In this document: positions 625 through 49,010 of the stretch, one piece after another
Numbering within the stretch: the first letter of the stretch is position 1
How the letters are laid out: every line of letters starts with the position of its first letter
From: Planctomycetaceae bacterium
GTDB taxonomy: Bacteria; Planctomycetota; Planctomycetia; Planctomycetales; Planctomycetaceae
Assembly: GCA_021732845.1 (NCBI GenBank)
Contig: JAKFUF010000060.1
Coordinates: 1 to 64,000 of the forward strand
Direction: 5' to 3'
DNA: 64,000 bases
Program-made: the position numbers and the translations under genes
Notes under the pieces: generated by a model
Databases searched by the model: none
Told to the model about the DNA's origin: nothing
What the model saw: the letters and a program-made list of their open reading frames with translations, nothing else

Positions 625-2232
625 ATGCCCTGCAAAGTGATGGAAGAACTGGTCGTTGTCTACCAGATTGGTTGCACCGCCTCGGAAGTCGAAGGCCTGA
701 GCCGCGATGTGGCGTACGAGCAGTCGGTCGAACTGCCGCCGGAACTGATCCAGTCCCCCCACATTCTGGAGAACATTGTCGGGCGCGTGGCTTGCATCGA
801 GCCCGTGGAGGGCTGCGTCGATCTGTTTCGCGTGGAGATTCGCTACGCCGCCGCGCTCGCCGGGAACCAGTTTCCGCAGTTGCTGAACCTGCTGTTCGGC
901 AACATTTCGATGAAGCGGAATGTCCGCGTCGTCGATGTGCATTTTCCGCCCTCTGTGTTGGCTCATTTCCCTGGTCCGCGCTTTGGGATCGAAGGCATCC
1001 GCCAGGTTCTGGGCGTTTTCGACCGGCCGCTGCTGTCGACGGCCCTGAAGCCACAGGGAGCTTCGCTCGCTGAACTTGCCGCCATGGCGGGAGAGTTCGC
1101 GCTGGGCGGGGGCGACATCGTCAAAGACGATCACAATCTGCACGACGCGACGTTCGCGGCGTTTTGCGAGCGGGTGAACCGTTGCCACGAAGCGGTCGCC
1201 GCGGCGAATGCCCGCACCGGCGGCAACACGCTGTACTTCCCGAACATCATGGCTCCGGCCGAAGAACTCGACCGGCAGGTGGAGTTCGTGGTGTCGCGGG
1301 GACTGCCCGGCATCCTCATTGCTCCGTTCCTGATGGGGCCGGACCAGGTGCGGCGGATCTGTCAGAAGCATCCGCTGATTGTCATGGCTCACCCCACGCT
1401 GACCGGGGCCTATTTCCACGACCCCCGGCACGGGTTCGACCCTGGCATTCTGCTCGGCACGCTGTTCCGGCTGATGGGCTGCGACATTTCGATTTATCCG
1501 CATGTGGGCGGGCGGTTCACGTTCACCCAGGACGACTGCCTGAAGATCGCCGATGAACTGCGCAAGCCACACGGCTCGCTGCTGCCGGCGTTTCCCGCGC
1601 CGGCCGGGGGGATGAAGTTCGACACGCTGCCGGCCCTGTGCGATGTGTATGGAACCGATGCGGTGCTGCTCATCGGCGGTGCCTTGATCGGGCATGCCCC
1701 CAGCGTTCGGGAAGGGACGGCGGCCTTCCTCGGTCAGATCCAGCAAAAGTACCCCGGCCGCCGGATTGAGCCACAGGCTGCAGTGGGTCCCGCGGAGTTC
1801 GTCTCGGCGTGTGAATGGCAGGCGCGGGAGATCGTGGCGGCGGTGATGCAGCACCTGCCGTTTCGCGACGATTTTCGCTGGGCCGGCCGCGATCCGCTGG
1901 CCTACAAGGAATCCAGCACGCTGCCGTTCCGTGATGTCACCCGCGTCGAATTGATCGGGAAGACCGGAGAGGCCACGGCCTTCGATCTGCGGTATTTCCA
2001 GATTGAACCGGGTGGCTTTACCAGCCTGGAAAAGCACGCGCACACTCACACGGTCATCGGTGTTCGTGGTGAGGGGATTCTGCGCAACGGCGACAAGCAG
2101 TTTTCGTTGAAGGAACTCGATGTCGCCTACGTACCGCCACTGGCCGTCCATCAACTGCGCAACGAAACCAGCCAGCCCTTCGGGTTCTTCTGCATCGTGG
2201 ACCGGAATCGCGACCGGCCGCAGCCGGTGTAG
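625..2232 (+). CDS. RuBisCO-like protein (form IV) fused to a C-terminal cupin
   Basis: Residues 1-420 follow the RuBisCO large-subunit fold: the strand-1 lysine motif is TALKPQG (K142), the carbamylation-site region is GGGDIVKDDHNL (K167, D168, D169), and MAHPT supplies the active-site histidine (H256). The glutamate that normally follows KDD is histidine (H170) and no loop-6 GKLEG motif is present. It is therefore a RuBisCO-like protein and probably not a CO2-fixing enzyme. Residues 440-525 form a single cupin barrel with the metal-type pattern HAHTHT (H471, H473, H475) and a second-motif histidine H509. The fusion suggests an isomerase, tautomerase or decarboxylase acting on a phosphorylated sugar acid, with the cupin as a second catalytic or sensing module; the substrate is unknown. 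ATG at 640 is an alternative start. surE follows 60 bp downstream on the same strand. Confidence 0.85.
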   Translation: MPCKVMEELVVVYQIGCTASEVEGLSRDVAYEQSVELPPELIQSPHILENIVGRVACIEPVEGCVDLFRVEIRYAAALAGNQFPQLLNLLFGNISMKRNVRVVDVHFPPSVLAHFPGPRFGIEGIRQVLGVFDRPLLSTALKPQGASLAELAAMAGEFALGGGDIVKDDHNLHDATFAAFCERVNRCHEAVAAANARTGGNTLYFPNIMAPAEELDRQVEFVVSRGLPGILIAPFLMGPDQVRRICQKHPLIVMAHPTLTGAYFHDPRHGFDPGILLGTLFRLMGCDISIYPHVGGRFTFTQDDCLKIADELRKPHGSLLPAFPAPAGGMKFDTLPALCDVYGTDAVLLIGGALIGHAPSVREGTAAFLGQIQQKYPGRRIEPQAAVGPAEFVSACEWQAREIVAAVMQHLPFRDDFRWAGRDPLAYKESSTLPFRDVTRVELIGKTGEATAFDLRYFQIEPGGFTSLEKHAHTHTVIGVRGEGILRNGDKQFSLKELDVAYVPPLAVHQLRNETSQPFGFFCIVDRNRDRPQPV

Positions 2233-2292: not shown

Positions 2293-3078
2293 GTGCGGAT
2301 TCTGTTGACCAACGATGACGGCATTTATGCTCCCGGGCTCGATGCCTTGCATGCCGAACTGCAGCGACTGGGAACGGTGGACGTCGTGGCTCCCGCGTTG
2401 GAGCAGAGTGGCGTGAGCCACTCGATCACTTATCTGGAACCGCTGCTGGTCAAGGAGATTTTTCGGGACGGGATGTTGTTTGGCCGTGCGGTGGCTGGCA
2501 GTCCAGCGGACTGCGTGCGGATGGCGATGTTGGAGTTCTGCCGGCCTGCTCCAGACCTGGTTGTCAGTGGCATCAATTCCGGGGCGAACGCCGGTATTAA
2601 TGTGCTGTATTCCGGCACCGTGGCCGCGGCGATTGAGGGAGCCTTTTATGGGGTGACGGCGATTGCCGTCTCGCTCGCGGAGAACCGGCATCCCAATTAT
2701 CGCCTGGCGGCCCGTCACGCCGTGCAGGTGATCGAGCAACTTGTGAGCCACGTTCCCGCGGGGTCACTGTGGAACGTGAATGTCCCCGAGACCCGGCCCG
2801 ACTGGCCGTTGGGCGTCAAGACCCTGCCCATGAGTCTTGAGCGGTATCGCGAAGTGGTCGAACGCCGGATCGATCCACGCGGCCGGTCTTATTATTGGAT
2901 TGGAACCGATCCGGCCGGCGGACACGTCATCGAACCGGGCACGGATGTGGAAGGTTTGAATGAGGGCTACATCACAATCAGCCCGCTGTATTTCGACCTG
3001 AACCATCATCGCCTGCTGAGCGAATTCCGGAATCGGAACTGGTCGCTGAACACCGAACCGGACGATGGCGGGCCATAG
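2293..3078 (+). CDS. surE: 5'/3'-nucleotidase SurE
   Basis: SurE dephosphorylates nucleoside 5'- and 3'-monophosphates in the cytoplasm, using a divalent metal. The 261-residue protein opens with MRILLTNDDG, whose Asp-Asp pair (D8, D9) binds the metal. It carries the family's SGVSHS segment and the SGINSGANAGIN loop with the metal-binding Asn. Length is normal for the family. The start is a GTG at 2293, which puts the diagnostic motif at the very N-terminus as in all SurE proteins. It lies 60 bp after the RuBisCO-like gene and may be cotranscribed with it. Confidence 0.95.
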   Translation: MRILLTNDDGIYAPGLDALHAELQRLGTVDVVAPALEQSGVSHSITYLEPLLVKEIFRDGMLFGRAVAGSPADCVRMAMLEFCRPAPDLVVSGINSGANAGINVLYSGTVAAAIEGAFYGVTAIAVSLAENRHPNYRLAARHAVQVIEQLVSHVPAGSLWNVNVPETRPDWPLGVKTLPMSLERYREVVERRIDPRGRSYYWIGTDPAGGHVIEPGTDVEGLNEGYITISPLYFDLNHHRLLSEFRNRNWSLNTEPDDGGP

Positions 3079-3268: not shown

Positions 3269-4672
3269 GTGACTGCCGCCTCTGGGGTTCAGCATCTGCT
3301 GCTGGTGACCGGCCGCCTTGCCGAACCGGCCCTACGGCAGGTGGTCGAGGGCCTGAACGCCAGCCGCCCTGAAGTGCAATGCCAGGTCGCAGTGTTGCCC
3401 ATCAGTGTTGCCGCCCTGATGCATGCCGAGTGGGTCCGCCGGAAGCTTCCGCCACCCGCTGGCGTGGACAGAGTGGTCCTTCCTGGCTGGTGTCAGGGTG
3501 ACGTGGCTCAACTCGCGGTCGACTGGGGGGTGCCGGTGCAACTGGGGCCGAAAGACCTGCAGGATCTGCCGGAGTTTTTCGGCCGCCCTCCCGGCCCGCC
3601 GCCGGATCTTTCCAAATACGACATCGAAATTCTGGCAGAAATCAATCATGCCCCGCGGCTGAGCCACCGGGAGTTGATGGCACAGTGTGAAGAGTTTCGC
3701 CGCCAAGGCGCGGACCTGATCGATCTGGGCTGCATCCCCGGCGAGCCGTGGCTCGGCGTGGCCGCGGCGGTGCGTTTGCTGCGTGAGGCGGGGTTCCGCA
3801 TTTCCATCGACAGCTTCGATCGCACGGAAGTGGAGCGCGCCGTGGCTGCCGGCGCGGAATTGGTTTTGAGCTGCAATCAATCGAACATCGCCTGGGCTGC
3901 CGACCTGCCGGCGGAATTGGTGGCGATCCCCGACAATCCGCATGACCTGGCGGGGCTGGAGGACACAGTTCAGCAGCTCAGCGAGCGGGGAGCGAAGTTT
4001 CGCATCGACGCGATCCTGGAACCGATCGGCTTCGGTTTCGCGGCATCACTCGGCCGTTATCTGGATGTTCGCCGCCGCTGGCCGGAACATTCGTTGATGA
4101 TGGGGATCGGCAACGTCACCGAGTTGACTGAAGTCGACAGTGCCGGGATCAACATGCTGCTGGCGGGCTTCTGCCAGGAGCAGCGGATTCACAGTGTGCT
4201 GACGACCTCCGTCATCCCTTGGTGCCGTACCGCAGTGCAGGAGTTCGACATTGCCCGAAGGATCTGTGCCCACGCCGTCAGGCAGCACGTGCTGCCCAAA
4301 CGCGTCGACCCGCGGCTGGTGACGCTTCGCGACACTCGCGTGCGGGAGCTTGGCCCCGACGCACTGCAGCAGCTTGCCAGCCAGCTCAAGGATCCGAATT
4401 ACCGGATTTTTGTCGAGCAGGGTGAACTGCACATCATGAATCGCGATGGCTACCACCACGGCACCGACCCGTTTGCCTTGTTTGAGAAGCTCGGGGCATT
4501 GGACGCCTCCCATGCGTTCTACATCGGGTATGAACTCTCAAAGGCTGCCACGGCACTCACCCTGGGGAAGTGCTACCGTCAGGACGAAGCCCTCGACTGG
4601 GGATTTTTGACGGTGCCGGAAATCAGCCGCAAACATCGGGAGGGTTTGAAGGATGACGTGGCCACGCCGTAA
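3269..4672 (+). CDS. Dihydropteroate synthase-like protein (DUF6513 type)
   Basis: The 467-residue protein has an N-terminal alpha/beta domain (about 1-110) followed by a TIM-barrel region. Recognisable dihydropteroate-synthase-like elements are EINHAP, GADLIDLGCIPGEPW, FRISIDSFD and the ILEPIGFGF strand. True folate enzymes are shorter and lack the N-terminal extension. Relatives in planctomycetes and methylotrophs are linked to tetrahydromethanopterin-dependent C1 metabolism; that is family knowledge recalled here and no other C1 gene lies nearby. The start is GTG at 3269. The 190-bp gap before it contains no other gene. The C-terminal 90 residues (about 380-467) look like a separate small domain (SKAATALTLGKCYRQDEALDWG). 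Confidence 0.75.
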   Translation: MTAASGVQHLLLVTGRLAEPALRQVVEGLNASRPEVQCQVAVLPISVAALMHAEWVRRKLPPPAGVDRVVLPGWCQGDVAQLAVDWGVPVQLGPKDLQDLPEFFGRPPGPPPDLSKYDIEILAEINHAPRLSHRELMAQCEEFRRQGADLIDLGCIPGEPWLGVAAAVRLLREAGFRISIDSFDRTEVERAVAAGAELVLSCNQSNIAWAADLPAELVAIPDNPHDLAGLEDTVQQLSERGAKFRIDAILEPIGFGFAASLGRYLDVRRRWPEHSLMMGIGNVTELTEVDSAGINMLLAGFCQEQRIHSVLTTSVIPWCRTAVQEFDIARRICAHAVRQHVLPKRVDPRLVTLRDTRVRELGPDALQQLASQLKDPNYRIFVEQGELHIMNRDGYHHGTDPFALFEKLGALDASHAFYIGYELSKAATALTLGKCYRQDEALDWGFLTVPEISRKHREGLKDDVATP

Positions 4673-4796: not shown

Positions 4797-5750
4797 GTGG
4801 CTCGCAAACTGATTATCGACTTGGATCCTGGAATCGGCGATGCCCTCGCGGCAGTCGTGGCTCTCCTCGACCCCGAACTGGATGTGCTGGCGCTGACGGC
4901 GACCAGTGGCTGTGTCTCTGGTGCGGCGGCGACGCGCAACCTCCAATCCATCGTGGCCCAGGTCGACCCTCCGCGCTGGCCGCGCATCGGACAGGCCTCG
5001 GATGAGGACATCGGTCGCGAGCGGATCGTCCCCCCCTCCTATGCCAGCCTCGACTTCCTCAATGGCCCCGAGGGGCTGGGGGGGTGTGACTTCAACGTCG
5101 CCGAACTACACCACTTGCGCGACTCCGCAAAACTGCTGATCGAGACGGTCAAAGCCAACCCGCATGAAGTCACCCTGCTGACACTGGGACCCTTGACCAA
5201 TGTCGCGGCGGCAATGGACCGGGATCCGGAATTTTTGAGCCTTCTGGACGGCCTGGTCTGCCTGGCAGGCAGCATTGCCGAAGGCGGCGACGTGACGTCA
5301 GCGGCCGAATTCAATGTCTTCACCAGCCCCGAAGCGGCGCGCACGGTGCTTCGCGCGCAGGATCCCAAGATCATCATCCCGCTGGACGTGACCAACCGCG
5401 CGGTCTTGACCTACGACGCCTTCAACCGGCTGATGGAGGGGCCGCTGAAGTGCGGCGAGTTCCTGCAGAAGCTGCTGCCCTACTCGGTCCGGGCGCATCA
5501 TCAACACCTGGGGGTGGAAGGGCTGTTCCTGCGGGAGGTGACCGCACTCGTCGCCGTCACCCGGCCGCAACTGTTCCGCATGCAGCGGATGGCGGTCGAC
5601 GTGGAGACCCAGGGCGATGTGGCCCGCGGAGCCACGCTGTTCGACCGCCGCCGCTTCTTCCAGTGTCCTACCAACGCGACGGTGGCCATGGAAGTCGACG
5701 TGCAGGCCGTGCAGGATCACCTCACCCGGTTGCTGCGCGACCGGGGTTGA
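4797..5750 (+). CDS. Nucleoside hydrolase family protein, active site degenerate
   Basis: The N-terminus reads DLDPGIGDALA, the signature of the inosine/uridine nucleoside hydrolase fold, normally DTDPGxDDA. The segments LLTLGPLTNVA and AAEFNVFTSPEAA (ribose-binding Asn) are conserved. Two catalytic positions are changed: the third aspartate of the motif is Gly14, and the late His-Asp pair that ligates calcium and ribose is replaced (FLREVTALVAV). The 317-residue length is normal. It may hydrolyse an unusual nucleoside, act on another N-riboside, or be non-catalytic. It starts at GTG 4797, 124 bp after the preceding gene, and closes the metabolic group that begins with the RuBisCO-like gene. 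Confidence 0.8.
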   Translation: MARKLIIDLDPGIGDALAAVVALLDPELDVLALTATSGCVSGAAATRNLQSIVAQVDPPRWPRIGQASDEDIGRERIVPPSYASLDFLNGPEGLGGCDFNVAELHHLRDSAKLLIETVKANPHEVTLLTLGPLTNVAAAMDRDPEFLSLLDGLVCLAGSIAEGGDVTSAAEFNVFTSPEAARTVLRAQDPKIIIPLDVTNRAVLTYDAFNRLMEGPLKCGEFLQKLLPYSVRAHHQHLGVEGLFLREVTALVAVTRPQLFRMQRMAVDVETQGDVARGATLFDRRRFFQCPTNATVAMEVDVQAVQDHLTRLLRDRG

Positions 5751-15416: not shown

Positions 15417-16013
15417 ATGCAGACGATTGAAGCTGTCTCCGGCCGTGCCGTGCCGCTGTTTCTCGACGACATCGACACCGACCGCATCATCCCCGCACGC
15501 TACCTGCGCTGCGTGACTTTTGAAGGTCTGGGCGAGCACGTCTTCGAAGACGACCGCAAGCAAGACCCGAACCATCCGTTCGACAAGCCCCAGTTTCAGG
15601 GGGCGACGGTGCTGGTCGCCGGCCGCAACTTCGGCTGTGGCTCATCCCGCGAACATGCCCCGCAGGCGCTGATGCGGTGGGGTGTGCGGGCGGTCGTTGC
15701 CGAATCCTATGCCGAAATCTTCTTCGGCAACTGCACCGCCAACGGTATCCCCTGCGTCACCGCCGACCGCGCCCACCTGCAGCAACTGGCCGAAGCTGTG
15801 GCTGCCAACCCGCAGCAGACTGTCACCGTCGACCTGATGAAGCTGACCGTCGAGAGCGGCGCGCTCAAGTTTCCGTGCAAGATGCAGGAAGGTGCCCGGC
15901 AGTCGCTCACGACCGGCAACTGGGATTTTCTGGCACAACTCGTCGACGCTGCCCCACAGATCCGTGAAACAGCGGAGCGGCTGCCGTACATGACGGGGTT
16001 TGCGAAGGTGTGA
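15417..16013 (+). CDS. leuD: 3-isopropylmalate dehydratase small subunit
   Basis: LeuD with LeuC isomerises 2- and 3-isopropylmalate in leucine synthesis. The 198-residue sequence has the family landmarks DDIDTDRIIPARYL near the N-terminus, GRNFGCGSSREHAP in the middle and a normal C-terminus (GNWDFLAQL). The ATG at 15417 follows a TGAGCCAC octamer. The large subunit leuC is not adjacent and is not in the window, which is unusual because the two are commonly paired. The next gene, 78 bp downstream, is unrelated. Confidence 0.95.
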   Translation: MQTIEAVSGRAVPLFLDDIDTDRIIPARYLRCVTFEGLGEHVFEDDRKQDPNHPFDKPQFQGATVLVAGRNFGCGSSREHAPQALMRWGVRAVVAESYAEIFFGNCTANGIPCVTADRAHLQQLAEAVAANPQQTVTVDLMKLTVESGALKFPCKMQEGARQSLTTGNWDFLAQLVDAAPQIRETAERLPYMTGFAKV

Positions 16014-16091
16014 GGCCAAACAAGTTGAGCCGGGTTGCGTCAGCTCTGTCGCGTCCGGCTTCGCCCTTGCCGAGTTAAGGGGATCGCAGCC

Positions 16092-17507
16092 ATGAGTCAG
16101 TTTGATCGGCACCTTCCGGACATCGACCGCCGGGCGTTTCTCGGAGCATACGCAGGCGGTCTCGGCGGACTGGCTTTGAGCCAACTGTTGGCCCGCACGG
16201 CAAAAGCGGGTCAAGCTTCGGGGAGCGCCCGCTCGCCGCATTTTCAGCCCAAGGCCAAGGCTGTGATCTGCCTGTTTCAGCACGGCGGTCCGAGCCAGAT
16301 GGATCTGTTCGACCCCAAGCCGGAACTGACGAAGCAGGACGGCAAACCCCATCCGGGCGACCTCGAGACGCATTTCGACAAGCAAAAGGGAAATTTGCTG
16401 GCCTCGCCTTTCCAGTTCGCGAAGGCGGGCCGGTGCGGGATGGAACTGTCGGAGGTGCTGCCCTGGACCAAGCAGATTGCCGACGACATTCTGCTGGTGC
16501 GGTCGATGAACACGGAATCGGTCGACCACGAAGCCGCGCTGCGGATCTTTCATACGGGCAAACTCTTTGCCGGCCGCCCGACACTGGGCTCGTGGATCCT
16601 CTACGGTCTGGGCAGCGAACGCCAGGAACTGCCCGCCTATGTCGTCCTCTCCGATCCGGGCGGACTGCCGATTGACGGCACCAAGAACTGGTCGTCGGGC
16701 TTCCTGCCGGCTCAGTTTCAAGGGACGCCGTTTCGCGCCCAGGGTTCGCCGGTGCTGCATCTCAACGCTCCCGCCGGAATCACCGTGGCTCAGCGCCGCC
16801 AGCAGTTGAACTTCCTGCAGCAGTTGAACGAAACGCACCTGCAGCGCGATCCCGAGAACACCGAACTCCAGGCCCGCATCCGCAACTTTGAACTCGCCGC
16901 CCGAATGCAGCTCGCGGTGCCGGAAGTCCTCGACATCAAGGGCGAAACCGAGGAGACGCAGAAGCTGTACGGGCTCGACAAGCCGGAAACGAAGGAGTAC
17001 GGGACGCGGTGCCTGCTGGCCCGCCGGCTGGTCGAACGCGGCGTGCGGTTTGTCCAGTTGTTTTTGAACGGACAGCCGTGGGACACGCACAGCAGCAATG
17101 CGGAAAGTCTGCGAAAACTGTGTCGGATGAGCGACCAGCCCGCCGCCGCCCTGGTGATGGACCTGAAGCGGCGGGGCCTGCTGGACGACACCATCGTGAT
17201 GTGGACCGGAGAGTTCGGCCGCCTGCCCGTCTCCCAAGGCAAGGACGGCCGCGATCACAACCGCCACGCCTTCTCGCTGTGGCTCGCGGGTGGGGGCTTT
17301 AAAGCCGGCCACGTGCATGGGGCGACCGACGAGTTCGGCTATCGTTCCGAGGTTGATCCGATCCGCGTCTGTGACCTGCATGCCACGCTGCTCGAGGCCC
17401 TGGGGCTTGACCACACGCAACTGACGTATCCGCACGAAGGTCGCGACGATGCGCTGACGGACGAACCGGTGACGCACGCCCGCGTGGCCGATGAACTTTT
17501 CGCATGA
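16092..17507 (+). CDS. DUF1501 protein, Tat-exported
   Basis: The N-terminus carries a twin-arginine signal (DIDRRAFLGAYAGGLGGLALS). The body has DUF1501 landmarks: AKAVICLFQHGGPSQMDLFDPKP, DDILLVRSMNTE, LLARRLVERGVRFVQLF and TIVMWTGEFGRLP, with RDHNRHAFSLWLAGGGFK near the end. The fold is related to sulfatases and alkaline phosphatases. In planctomycetes this gene is normally paired with a DUF1549/DUF1553 gene, which is missing beside it here. The start at 16092 is chosen because the 19 residues upstream would precede the Tat motif without a reason. Confidence 0.92.
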   Translation: MSQFDRHLPDIDRRAFLGAYAGGLGGLALSQLLARTAKAGQASGSARSPHFQPKAKAVICLFQHGGPSQMDLFDPKPELTKQDGKPHPGDLETHFDKQKGNLLASPFQFAKAGRCGMELSEVLPWTKQIADDILLVRSMNTESVDHEAALRIFHTGKLFAGRPTLGSWILYGLGSERQELPAYVVLSDPGGLPIDGTKNWSSGFLPAQFQGTPFRAQGSPVLHLNAPAGITVAQRRQQLNFLQQLNETHLQRDPENTELQARIRNFELAARMQLAVPEVLDIKGETEETQKLYGLDKPETKEYGTRCLLARRLVERGVRFVQLFLNGQPWDTHSSNAESLRKLCRMSDQPAAALVMDLKRRGLLDDTIVMWTGEFGRLPVSQGKDGRDHNRHAFSLWLAGGGFKAGHVHGATDEFGYRSEVDPIRVCDLHATLLEALGLDHTQLTYPHEGRDDALTDEPVTHARVADELFA

Positions 17508-39022: not shown

Positions 39023-39100
39023 AATTGAGCCGGCACGCTTTAGCCTCCGGTTAGTACATCGGTCAAACCGGACGCTAACGCGTGCCGGCTGATGAATTTG
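39023..39100. repeat. Core palindrome of repeat family A
   Basis: GAGCCGGCACGCTTTAGCCT at the left and GACGCTAACGCGTGCCGGCT at the right form an imperfect hairpin bracketing GGTT...AACC. Terminal repeats are missing. It lies between the neck-like and tail tube genes. Confidence 0.7.
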
Positions 39101-39153
39101 CCGATGCTCGTACGCTGGCCCCATCACATTATTCCCTACAGTTGACACACATT

Positions 39154-40092
39154 ATGCCCACACCCATCCATGGCGAGCGAAGTCATCTCACGCTGGCGAG
39201 CGAAACAACCTGGGGCGTCACGCCCGGATCGCCCGTCTATGTGCATGTCCCCGTGACAAACTATACGGTCACGGTCACCCGCGAGCGGAGAAACGCCGCG
39301 GCGTTTCTGGGCGTCCGCGAGCGACGCCACGGGCGAAGTTTGCACCACCAATGCGCCGGCCGGCTGGATTGTCCCTTGTATGGCTGGTATCCGTCTGGCC
39401 TCTCGATGAGTCTCGCCGAATATCTGTTGGGCTGGGCGTTCGCTGCACCGGACGAGACGGAACTGCCCAGCAAGCTGGCGGAGTGGGCCGAGGGGCCGAA
39501 TGTCGCCAATGTCCGGCAAAACGGTCTCCGGGTTCAGGCGGCCACGCTGAGCGGCACGGCCGAGTCGGGGACGATCTCGCTGGAACTGGAACTGATCGGA
39601 CCGGCGGAAGCGGCACTGGCCTCGGCCCAGACGTTGCCTGCCAATCGGCACCGAATGGTGGACTTCGAGTTTCCCGATGTCAGCGTGACCCTCGACGAAA
39701 GCGCACTGCCAATCGCCGCGTTCCGCCTGCGAATCGAAAACAGTCTGCGGCCCACATTCCTCAACGCCGCCACGATGGCGCATCTGTCCGCCGGCCCGCG
39801 AATCGTGAGTCTGCAACTGACGCCGATCAAATCGGCGGACACCTACAGTGCGTGGCAACGGGCGACAACCGATCTGGAGAAGGCCGGGCAGATCGTGCTT
39901 CGTGGCTTGCATAATGGCAGCGGCCCCTCTGGAGCGATGACCGTCGCCACGCTGGACTTTCCGCGACTGGCGTTTGTGAACGCCGACGCGCCGCGACCGC
40001 TGGCCGATCTCTACCGGCAGCCACTGCGCTTTGAAGTGCTGAAGCCGGATGACACCGACCCGGATCTGACGATCACCTGGTCAACGGCGTGA
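39154..40092 (+). CDS. Phage tail tube-like protein
   Basis: The 312-residue beta-rich protein opens LTLASETTWGVTPGSPVYVHVP and ends FEVLKPDDTDPDLTITWSTA. That N-terminal GETTWG-like segment, the middle TISLELELIG strand and the LPAF-type beta hairpins resemble phage tail tube proteins. The start at 39154 excludes an upstream stretch that belongs to repeat DNA. Tail type (long contractile or not) cannot be told. Confidence 0.6.
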   Translation: MPTPIHGERSHLTLASETTWGVTPGSPVYVHVPVTNYTVTVTRERRNAAAFLGVRERRHGRSLHHQCAGRLDCPLYGWYPSGLSMSLAEYLLGWAFAAPDETELPSKLAEWAEGPNVANVRQNGLRVQAATLSGTAESGTISLELELIGPAEAALASAQTLPANRHRMVDFEFPDVSVTLDESALPIAAFRLRIENSLRPTFLNAATMAHLSAGPRIVSLQLTPIKSADTYSAWQRATTDLEKAGQIVLRGLHNGSGPSGAMTVATLDFPRLAFVNADAPRPLADLYRQPLRFEVLKPDDTDPDLTITWSTA

Positions 40093-47564: not shown

Positions 47565-49010
47565 ATGCCTCGACGACAGAAGCCACCACAGGAACTCAGC
47601 GAAGACGACAGTAAAGCCGATAAAGAATCGCGCCTGTCGCTCGACGCCTATCTCAGGCATGTTGTGATCGACAGCCGGCCTGAGCCACGCCCTTGGTGCC
47701 AATGTATTGAAGAGTGGCAGCGTGACGTGATTGGTCCCATGGTTCCTGCCGTCGAGAAAGTCGCCGGGTTGCAGCCGGACTACGCGGGGCCGCGGTCCTT
47801 TTTTTATGTGCTGCCGCGGGGGCACGACAAAACCGGGATGATTGGCCGGCTGTGCAGTTGGGCGATCGCCTATGCGCGGCATCCGCTCCTGGCGATCGCC
47901 GCCGCAGCCGATCTCGACCAGGCGCGGCTCATTCTGCAATCGATGAAAAGTGAACTCTCGCTGAATCCGTGGCTCAAGCAGCACCTCATCTGCAAGTCCT
48001 TTGAAATTGAAGGACCAGGCGGGACGTTGCAGGTGATTTCCGCCGACGCCGGCAGCAGCAGCGGGCTCAAGGCCGACATTATTGTTTGCGACGAACTCAC
48101 CATGTGGAGGAGCCGCGCGCTGTTTGACATCTTGTATTCGGGCCGCGAGAAGCGGCCCGACAGCGTGTTTGCGATCATCACCAATGCCGGGTTCAAACAG
48201 TCCTGGCAGCACCAACTCCTGGAGAAGGCCCGTAATAACACCCGGCACTGGAAGGTTTATGAAGCACCGGTTGGCCAGACACTCGCGACCTGGATGTCGA
48301 CGGAGGGGATCGAGTCGCTGCGCGAATCATTGGATCGCGGCGTGGCCCGCCGCGTTCTCGACAACATCTGGACCGATACGATCGATCGACCGTTGTTGGA
48401 GTGGGATCTGATCGCGCAGTGTCACGCCGACTGCCTGTGGCCTGACGGCCGCGTGCCCGAGGGCCAGCATCCAGAACTGTATGTGGGGATTGATGTCGGC
48501 CGCAGCAAGGACCGAACGGTCATCTGGACACTGGAACGGGTGGGAGATGTGTTATGGACACGCGAAGTCAAGGTCATGGCCAATGTCGAATTTGACGAAC
48601 AGGAATCCGCGATTTTCACTCGGATGACCAAAAACGTGATGGCCACGCGAATCGACAAGGGCGGGATCGGCTCGCATATGGCCGAACACCTGGTGTCGCG
48701 GCACTCCAACCAGGCTGAAGGAGTCCAGTTGAATGCCGCAAAGCAGGGGCAGCTCGCACTGGCACTCAAGATAGCGTTCCAGTCACGACGGATTCGCATC
48801 CCCAATGACCCGGACCTGAACGCGGACCTGCAGCTTGTCGAGGAGGTGGGCTGTGGCTCAAACGGCCTGCCGATGCTGAAGACGAACCATGGTGAGACCG
48901 GCCACGCCGACCGCTTTTGGGCCGCCGCCCTCGCACTGTATGGAGTGCCCTATGAGCCGCAGCGGGTGCTTTATCCGCCACGTGGTTTTCCATCGAAAGC
49001 GGCAGGATGA
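47565..49010 (+). CDS. Phage terminase large subunit
   Basis: The 481-residue protein has an ATPase domain with a deviant Walker A, LPRGHDKTGM (residues 83-92; the glycine before the lysine is Asp), Walker B DIIVCDEL (residues 171-178) and the coupling motif region IITNAGF. The C-terminal nuclease domain has YVGIDVGRSKDRTV as the first acidic site and NHGETGHADRFWAAALA near the end. It packages DNA into the prohead. Terminase and portal are here last in the cluster rather than first. Confidence 0.85.
   Translation: MPRRQKPPQELSEDDSKADKESRLSLDAYLRHVVIDSRPEPRPWCQCIEEWQRDVIGPMVPAVEKVAGLQPDYAGPRSFFYVLPRGHDKTGMIGRLCSWAIAYARHPLLAIAAAADLDQARLILQSMKSELSLNPWLKQHLICKSFEIEGPGGTLQVISADAGSSSGLKADIIVCDELTMWRSRALFDILYSGREKRPDSVFAIITNAGFKQSWQHQLLEKARNNTRHWKVYEAPVGQTLATWMSTEGIESLRESLDRGVARRVLDNIWTDTIDRPLLEWDLIAQCHADCLWPDGRVPEGQHPELYVGIDVGRSKDRTVIWTLERVGDVLWTREVKVMANVEFDEQESAIFTRMTKNVMATRIDKGGIGSHMAEHLVSRHSNQAEGVQLNAAKQGQLALALKIAFQSRRIRIPNDPDLNADLQLVEEVGCGSNGLPMLKTNHGETGHADRFWAAALALYGVPYEPQRVLYPPRGFPSKAAG

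Follow-up and report, generated by a model that had tools for sequence, protein, structure and literature searches.

The fused gene and its surroundings

The window, i.e. the whole 64,000-nucleotide stretch of planctomycete DNA that was analysed, carries near its start an open reading frame in which a RuBisCO-like protein (RLP) domain is followed by a cupin domain. The fusion gene, its parts and other features of the window are listed below.

625..2232, + strand: RLP-cupin fusion gene; open frame of 535 amino acids (aa), aligned over its full length with fused homologues at 41-54% identity
625..1785, + strand: RuBisCO-like domain, aa 1-387, predicted 5-methylthioribulose-1-P 1,3-isomerase; Pfam RuBisCO_large, best PDB match 3qfw, tree placement
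1048..1059, + strand: KPQG motif with K142 (presumed Rubisco Lys175 position); K142, P143 and G145 invariant in 68 fused rows and 3qfw, KGxG in MtnW
1123..1134, + strand: KDDH motif, K167-H170 (presumed Rubisco KDDE position); KDD invariant in fused rows, E as last residue in MtnW
1786..1848, + strand: predicted disordered linker, aa 388-408; pLDDT <50 throughout
1849..2229, + strand: cupin domain, aa 409-535, predicted 1-methylthioxylulose-5-P methylsulfurylase; Pfam Cupin_2, PDB 3ibm and 3jzv
2029..2049, + strand: cupin motif 1 (E469, H471, H473, H475), putative metal site; invariant in 86/86 rows
2149..2154, + strand: cupin motif 2 (H509-Q510); invariant in 86/86 rows
2191..2193, + strand: C523, candidate redox-active cysteine; Cys in 86/86 rows including 3jzv
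2293-3078, + strand: SurE, downstream of the fusion
3269-4672, + strand: DUF6513 and dihydropteroate-synthase-like protein; TIGR00284 156 bits, below the cut-off of 256.65
4797-5750, + strand: inosine-uridine nucleoside hydrolase, downstream of the fusion
39082-40092, + strand: phage tail tube protein (PF18906)
47565-49010, + strand: terminase RNaseH-like domain (PF17289)

The list of open reading frames gives an ATG start at 625, with an alternative start possible at 640. Both domains exceed their Pfam gathering scores (RuBisCO_large at aa 121-382, E 3e-26; Cupin_2 at aa 457-524, E 3e-9). An AlphaFold2 model, for which 38 fused homologues served as the input alignment, contains two confident domains with a mean pLDDT of 90.7, and aa 388-408 is its sole stretch below 50; in fused homologues the inter-domain stretch measures 23-69 aa (median 37). 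Because fused homologues align over the full length, the join between the domains is not a frameshift or an assembly error. The fusion of a RuBisCO-like protein with a cupin, proposed in a preliminary description of this DNA, is confirmed by the single frame, the two Pfam domains and these homologues. An overlapping minus-strand frame (490-2751, 753 aa) was rejected as an antisense artefact of GC-rich coding sequence. In the host genome, a 9.25 Mb draft (262 contigs, 95.7% complete), the fusion gene occurs once; the nearest fused relatives of this host belong to the Planctomycetota.

The DUF6513 protein downstream is presumably of a kind associated with tetrahydromethanopterin-dependent C1 genes. 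Among the fusion loci compared, neither this gene nor SurE nor the nucleoside hydrolase was found beside other fusions, whose neighbours vary by lineage (exonuclease, PriA, Clp-type ATPase, fumarase subunit, PPIase, FabH). A conserved operon was rejected because the neighbours differ among lineages; mtnA lies about 12-21 kb from the fusion in three genomes (G321, G283, G231), with no operon. A comparison of gene neighbourhoods, as proposed in the preliminary description, shows that the context of the fusion is not conserved; some planctomycetes have one half only. The phage tail tube and terminase genes suggest that an integrated phage, or what is left of one, lies within the window.

Kinship and active-site residues of the two halves

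The RLP half is best matched by 3qfw, an RLP of R. palustris, with 39% identity (E 2e-75 by sequence, 4e-38 by fold). Among solved structures, 3qfw scores 258 bits and the next family 163; in a further comparison, 3qfw reaches 251 bits and MtnW-type proteins 151-157. The first two ranks of the fold search also favour the R. palustris/R. rubrum isomerase-type RLPs, to which the RLP half is closer than to MtnW, Photo RLP or Rubisco. In a quick tree the RLP half groups with 3qfw, apart from MtnW (SH-aLRT 97). On curated models the window protein reaches 174 bits for NCBIfam MtnW, well under the cut-off of 513.6, and 77 bits for the apionate RLP OiaX (cut-off 700); its score for type III Rubisco is likewise far under the cut-off.

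Both active-site lysines noted earlier are present as K142 and K167, which we take, by motif and established Rubisco numbering, to occupy the positions of Lys175 and Lys201; on the same basis the third Rubisco lysine (loop 6) presumably has no counterpart in the window protein. K142, K167, D169, H170, H256, GGRF and AGG are identical to 3qfw, and the signature KPxG, KDDH, GGRF, PAGG is common to both proteins, whereas MtnW has KGxG, KDDE, YGSV and PSAG. The KDDH that had been singled out as a variant of KDDE does stand at residues 167-170, but it is no oddity, since 3qfw also has KDDH and the fused rows have H (51) or Q (17) as the fourth residue, where MtnW has E. By kinship and signature, the RLP half is very likely of the isomerase type (DeepYkr), with a predicted 5-methylthioribulose-1-P 1,3-isomerase activity.

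The cupin half matches 3ibm (E 3e-28), 3jzv, which is Rru_A2000 (E 2e-25), and 3kgz (E 4e-22) in the PDB, and the next cupin follows at 7e-8. An alignment of 86 rows was assembled from fused, separate and PDB sequences, the three structures named above among them, and Y427, R440, Y457, F458, G464, E469, H471, H473, H475, H509, Q510, C523, R529 and D530 are invariant in all of them. The three histidines of the first motif and the one of the second, correctly read in the preliminary description, correspond to H471/H473/H475 and H509; their invariance marks the three-plus-one pattern as normal for the methylsulfurylase cupin family. C523 is a candidate redox-active cysteine; although the retrieval pattern favours Cys in the loci that it found, 3jzv, 3kgz and 3ibm have this residue too, as do loci found by another search. 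Judged from these alignments, the cupin half is very likely a specific relative of Rru_A2000 and a predicted 1-methylthioxylulose-5-P methylsulfurylase.

Predicted function and competing explanations

Both kinships lead to one known pathway. In R. rubrum, the DeepYkr RLP Rru_A1998 converts 5-methylthioribulose-1-P to 1-methylthioxylulose-5-P, in a 3:1 ratio with the ribulose epimer; from this product Rru_A2000 forms 1-deoxy-D-xylulose-5-P (DXP) and methanethiol as a glutathione adduct (PMC4958253, PMC5893883). O-acetylhomoserine (OAH) sulfhydrylase makes methionine from the methanethiol, and the route is known as the MTA-isoprenoid shunt (PMC4958253, PMC5893883). In R. palustris, RLP1 (RPA2169) and the cupin RPA2170 have consecutive locus numbers, and the same roles are backed by knockouts and enzyme assays (PMC5893883). 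The structure 3qfw would be that of RLP1, since 2qyg represents RLP2, the other RLP of R. palustris. The window RLP domain is tied to the group of Rru_A1998 and RPA2169 through 3qfw, which it matches best in both sequence and fold and with which it shares KPxG, KDDH, GGRF and PAGG, but the proteins of that group are stand-alone while this domain is fused, at 39% identity to 3qfw. Similarly, the cupin domain has every invariant residue of Rru_A2000 and RPA2170 and can be aligned across its entire length, but those cupins are encoded by stand-alone genes beside or near the RLP gene, and the identity is moderate.

As each half is closest to the enzymes of consecutive steps, the window protein most likely serves the MTA-isoprenoid shunt as a bifunctional enzyme, and this prediction from sequence is held with high confidence. 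Methylthioadenosine (MTA), a methionine-derived waste product of polyamine and related metabolism, would first be turned into 5-methylthioribose-1-P, from which MtnA would make 5-methylthioribulose-1-P. The RLP domain would then shift the carbonyl (1,3-isomerisation) to give 1-methylthio-D-xylulose-5-P, and the tethered, metal-dependent cupin would cut the C-S bond with a thiol, yielding the isoprenoid precursor DXP and a methylthio adduct. From this adduct methanethiol would be released, which OAH sulfhydrylase could turn back into methionine. The order of the domains, isomerase half and then methylsulfurylase half, is the order of the pathway. Tethering might help to draw off the 3:1 product mixture of the isomerase; this benefit, both catalytic activities and the thiol used are what we infer for the window protein. 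The suggestion in the preliminary description that two consecutive reactions take place on a thio-sugar phosphate is supported by these kinships.

Several observations count against a shunt enzyme, namely the moderate identity (39% for the RLP), a host without a clear MtnP, a neighbourhood that is not conserved and planctomycetes with only one half, and three other explanations were weighed. It is very improbable that the fusion contains an MtnW-type RLP of universal methionine salvage. MtnW, the enolase acting on DK-MTP-1-P, shares with the window protein the superfamily, the overall fold and a tie to MTA salvage; it is the next nearest solved family, its model gives 174 bits, and MtnD of the same route is also a cupin-fold enzyme. 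Nevertheless, the score is far under the cut-off, the diagnostic residues of the active site differ, MtnW has no cupin fusion, and the cupin here is much nearer to Rru_A2000. In addition, the MtnD (acireductone dioxygenase, ARD) family is unmatched in the fused protein and in all 14 fusion genomes searched, while the same search recovers this family in B. subtilis and other controls; with MtnD absent from all 14, the oxygen-dependent salvage route appears incomplete in these organisms.

An isomerase joined to a non-catalytic cupin with a regulatory or product-sensing role, as the preliminary description allowed, can be considered just as improbable. AraC_binding-type cupins do sense sugars, and the window protein has a weak match to them (20.7 bits, below the cut-off), but the fused protein has no DNA-binding or signalling domain, its nearest solved cupin of known function is the enzyme of the next step, and 86/86 rows keep the residues of the catalytic family, namely all four histidines, the glutamate and the cysteine. 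Only slightly less remote is a role for the fusion on another phosphorylated keto-sugar, e.g. in apionate or nucleoside catabolism. SurE and the nucleoside hydrolase, on the same strand just downstream, hint at nucleotide breakdown, yet both are absent beside other fusions; the OiaX score, a small fraction of its cut-off, likewise disfavours the sugar-acid substrate that had been offered earlier.

Beyond the predicted shunt activity, it is conceivable, though rather unlikely, that the RLP domain also takes 5-deoxyribulose-1-P. This compound would come from 5'-deoxyadenosine, a radical-SAM by-product, via the same upstream enzymes, and the 1,3-carbonyl shift would give DXP directly without the cupin. 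If so, the fusion would salvage two SAM by-products to DXP, with both domains needed for MTA and only the first for 5'-deoxyadenosine, and the RLP-only planctomycetes (families f18 and f20) would also be explained. A literature search for RLP acceptance of 5-deoxyribulose-1-P gave no papers.

Methionine-salvage enzymes are likewise fused in MtnBD of Tetrahymena, although that fusion joins other enzymes and reactions, in the oxygen-dependent branch of a eukaryote (PMC3698126). A form IV RLP of Candidatus Scalindua profunda, scal00245, was described as nearest to RLPs of Magnetobacterium and Planctomyces limnophilus, and its function was called unknown (PMC3655542). That paper mentions no cupin, whereas the Scalindua and Magnetobacterium loci examined here are RLP-cupin fusions; one apparent member of the fused group has thus been published as of unknown function. 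No description of an RLP-cupin fusion was found in the open-licence literature, which was the scope of the search; someone may already have noted the architecture in subscription papers or sequence-database annotations. It is the architecture that appears to be undescribed; the chemistry and both steps are already known.

The predicted shunt activity would provide a specific, testable function for form IV RLPs in uncultured lineages, including Planctomycetota, anammox Scalindua, magnetotactic Nitrospirota, Fibrobacterota and KSB1. The fusion is independent evidence that isomerase and methylsulfurylase operate as a pair, and would offer synthesis of DXP without Dxs by a single polypeptide. It further suggests that environmental phyla salvage MTA without oxygen and release methanethiol in the process, for which the literature search found no earlier report.

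Pathway genes, distribution and history of the fusion

The host encodes MtnA (G000:C153:13050-14024; 444.6 bits, cut-off 279), and among genomes with the fusion 46 of 49 score above the MtnA cut-off, compared with 8 of 14 control genomes; within the Planctomycetota MtnA is weak evidence, since relatives without an RLP match also have it. OAH sulfhydrylase (682 bits), for the use of methanethiol, and Dxr (445 bits), for the use of DXP, are present in the host as well. For MTA phosphorylase, the best host candidate is a phosphorylase-family protein with 98 bits (MtnP cut-off 274.85), and our guess is that a broad purine nucleoside phosphorylase could replace MtnP. MtnP exceeds the cut-off in 20 of the 49 fusion genomes and falls below it in 29, six of these by 1-11 bits.

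Dxs is found in the host and in 41/49 fusion genomes, and seven fusion genomes, including both KSB1 carriers, have Dxr without detectable Dxs. About ten further KSB1 genomes also have Dxr without Dxs and lack the fusion (82 genomes, with at most six candidates scored per genome), so that in this phylum the absence of Dxs is not accounted for by the fusion. The fusion as a replacement for Dxs was rejected, because the host has Dxs and these KSB1 genomes lack the fusion. As a separate observation, KSB1-related genomes with Dxr and no recognisable Dxs, mostly without the fusion, are G509-G511, G513, G515-G520, G398 and G402. On host contig C127, Dxs (G000:C127:11952-13781) and the high-scoring OAH sulfhydrylase (15700-16965) are about 2 kb apart; this proximity is not seen in the relatives checked and may be chance.

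A search for the same architecture, suggested in the preliminary description, was carried out on one genome per species using patterns drawn from seven planctomycete fusions. It returned 78 loci, 61 of which have both domains in a single frame, always with the RLP first; the patterns favour fused sequences, so neither this ratio nor the counts per taxon measure prevalence. Fused loci span at least 11 phyla, with 20 in Planctomycetota (including Scalindua and Brocadiaceae), 16 in Pseudomonadota (mostly labelled Gammaproteobacteria), 8 in Nitrospirota (including Magnetobacterium) and 5 in Fibrobacterota. Others occur in KSB1, Firestonebacteria, FCPU426, Hydrogenedentota, Sumerlaeota, Thermodesulfobacteriota and Elusimicrobiota; since the genomes are mostly metagenome bins, individual taxon labels may be in error. 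An extra N-terminus of 220-280 residues in two loci (L119/L120) was rejected as an over-extended frame. Adjacent but separate RLP and cupin genes are found in Gemmatimonadota (L137, overlapping genes), Actinomycetota (L135/L136) and at L133. Together with RPA2169/RPA2170, these pairs indicate that separately encoded homologues are often adjacent and act in sequence, rather than being unrelated in context, the pattern which the preliminary description had set against its own reading.

Fused sequences cluster strongly in quick maximum-likelihood trees, where fused and non-fused labels change three times for the RLP (about 31 when shuffled) and twice for the cupin (about 17 when shuffled; few columns). 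In the RLP tree, whose backbone support is moderate, the fused sequences exclude 3qfw, L133 and L137 but enclose two lineages of planctomycetes that have only the RLP. As far as these trees indicate, the pattern is consistent with a single ancient fusion and at least two later losses of the cupin domain. The RLP-only planctomycetes (f18 and f20; L009-L013, L015, L017-L027) are nested in the fused clade, mostly keep the active-site residues and have no cupin match; perhaps they lost the cupin secondarily and use a different substrate. Other planctomycetes (G118, G134, G149, G164, G178, G001, G005; L061-L064) are cupin-only, with no RLP match and with a methylsulfurylase-family cupin at 45-48% identity.
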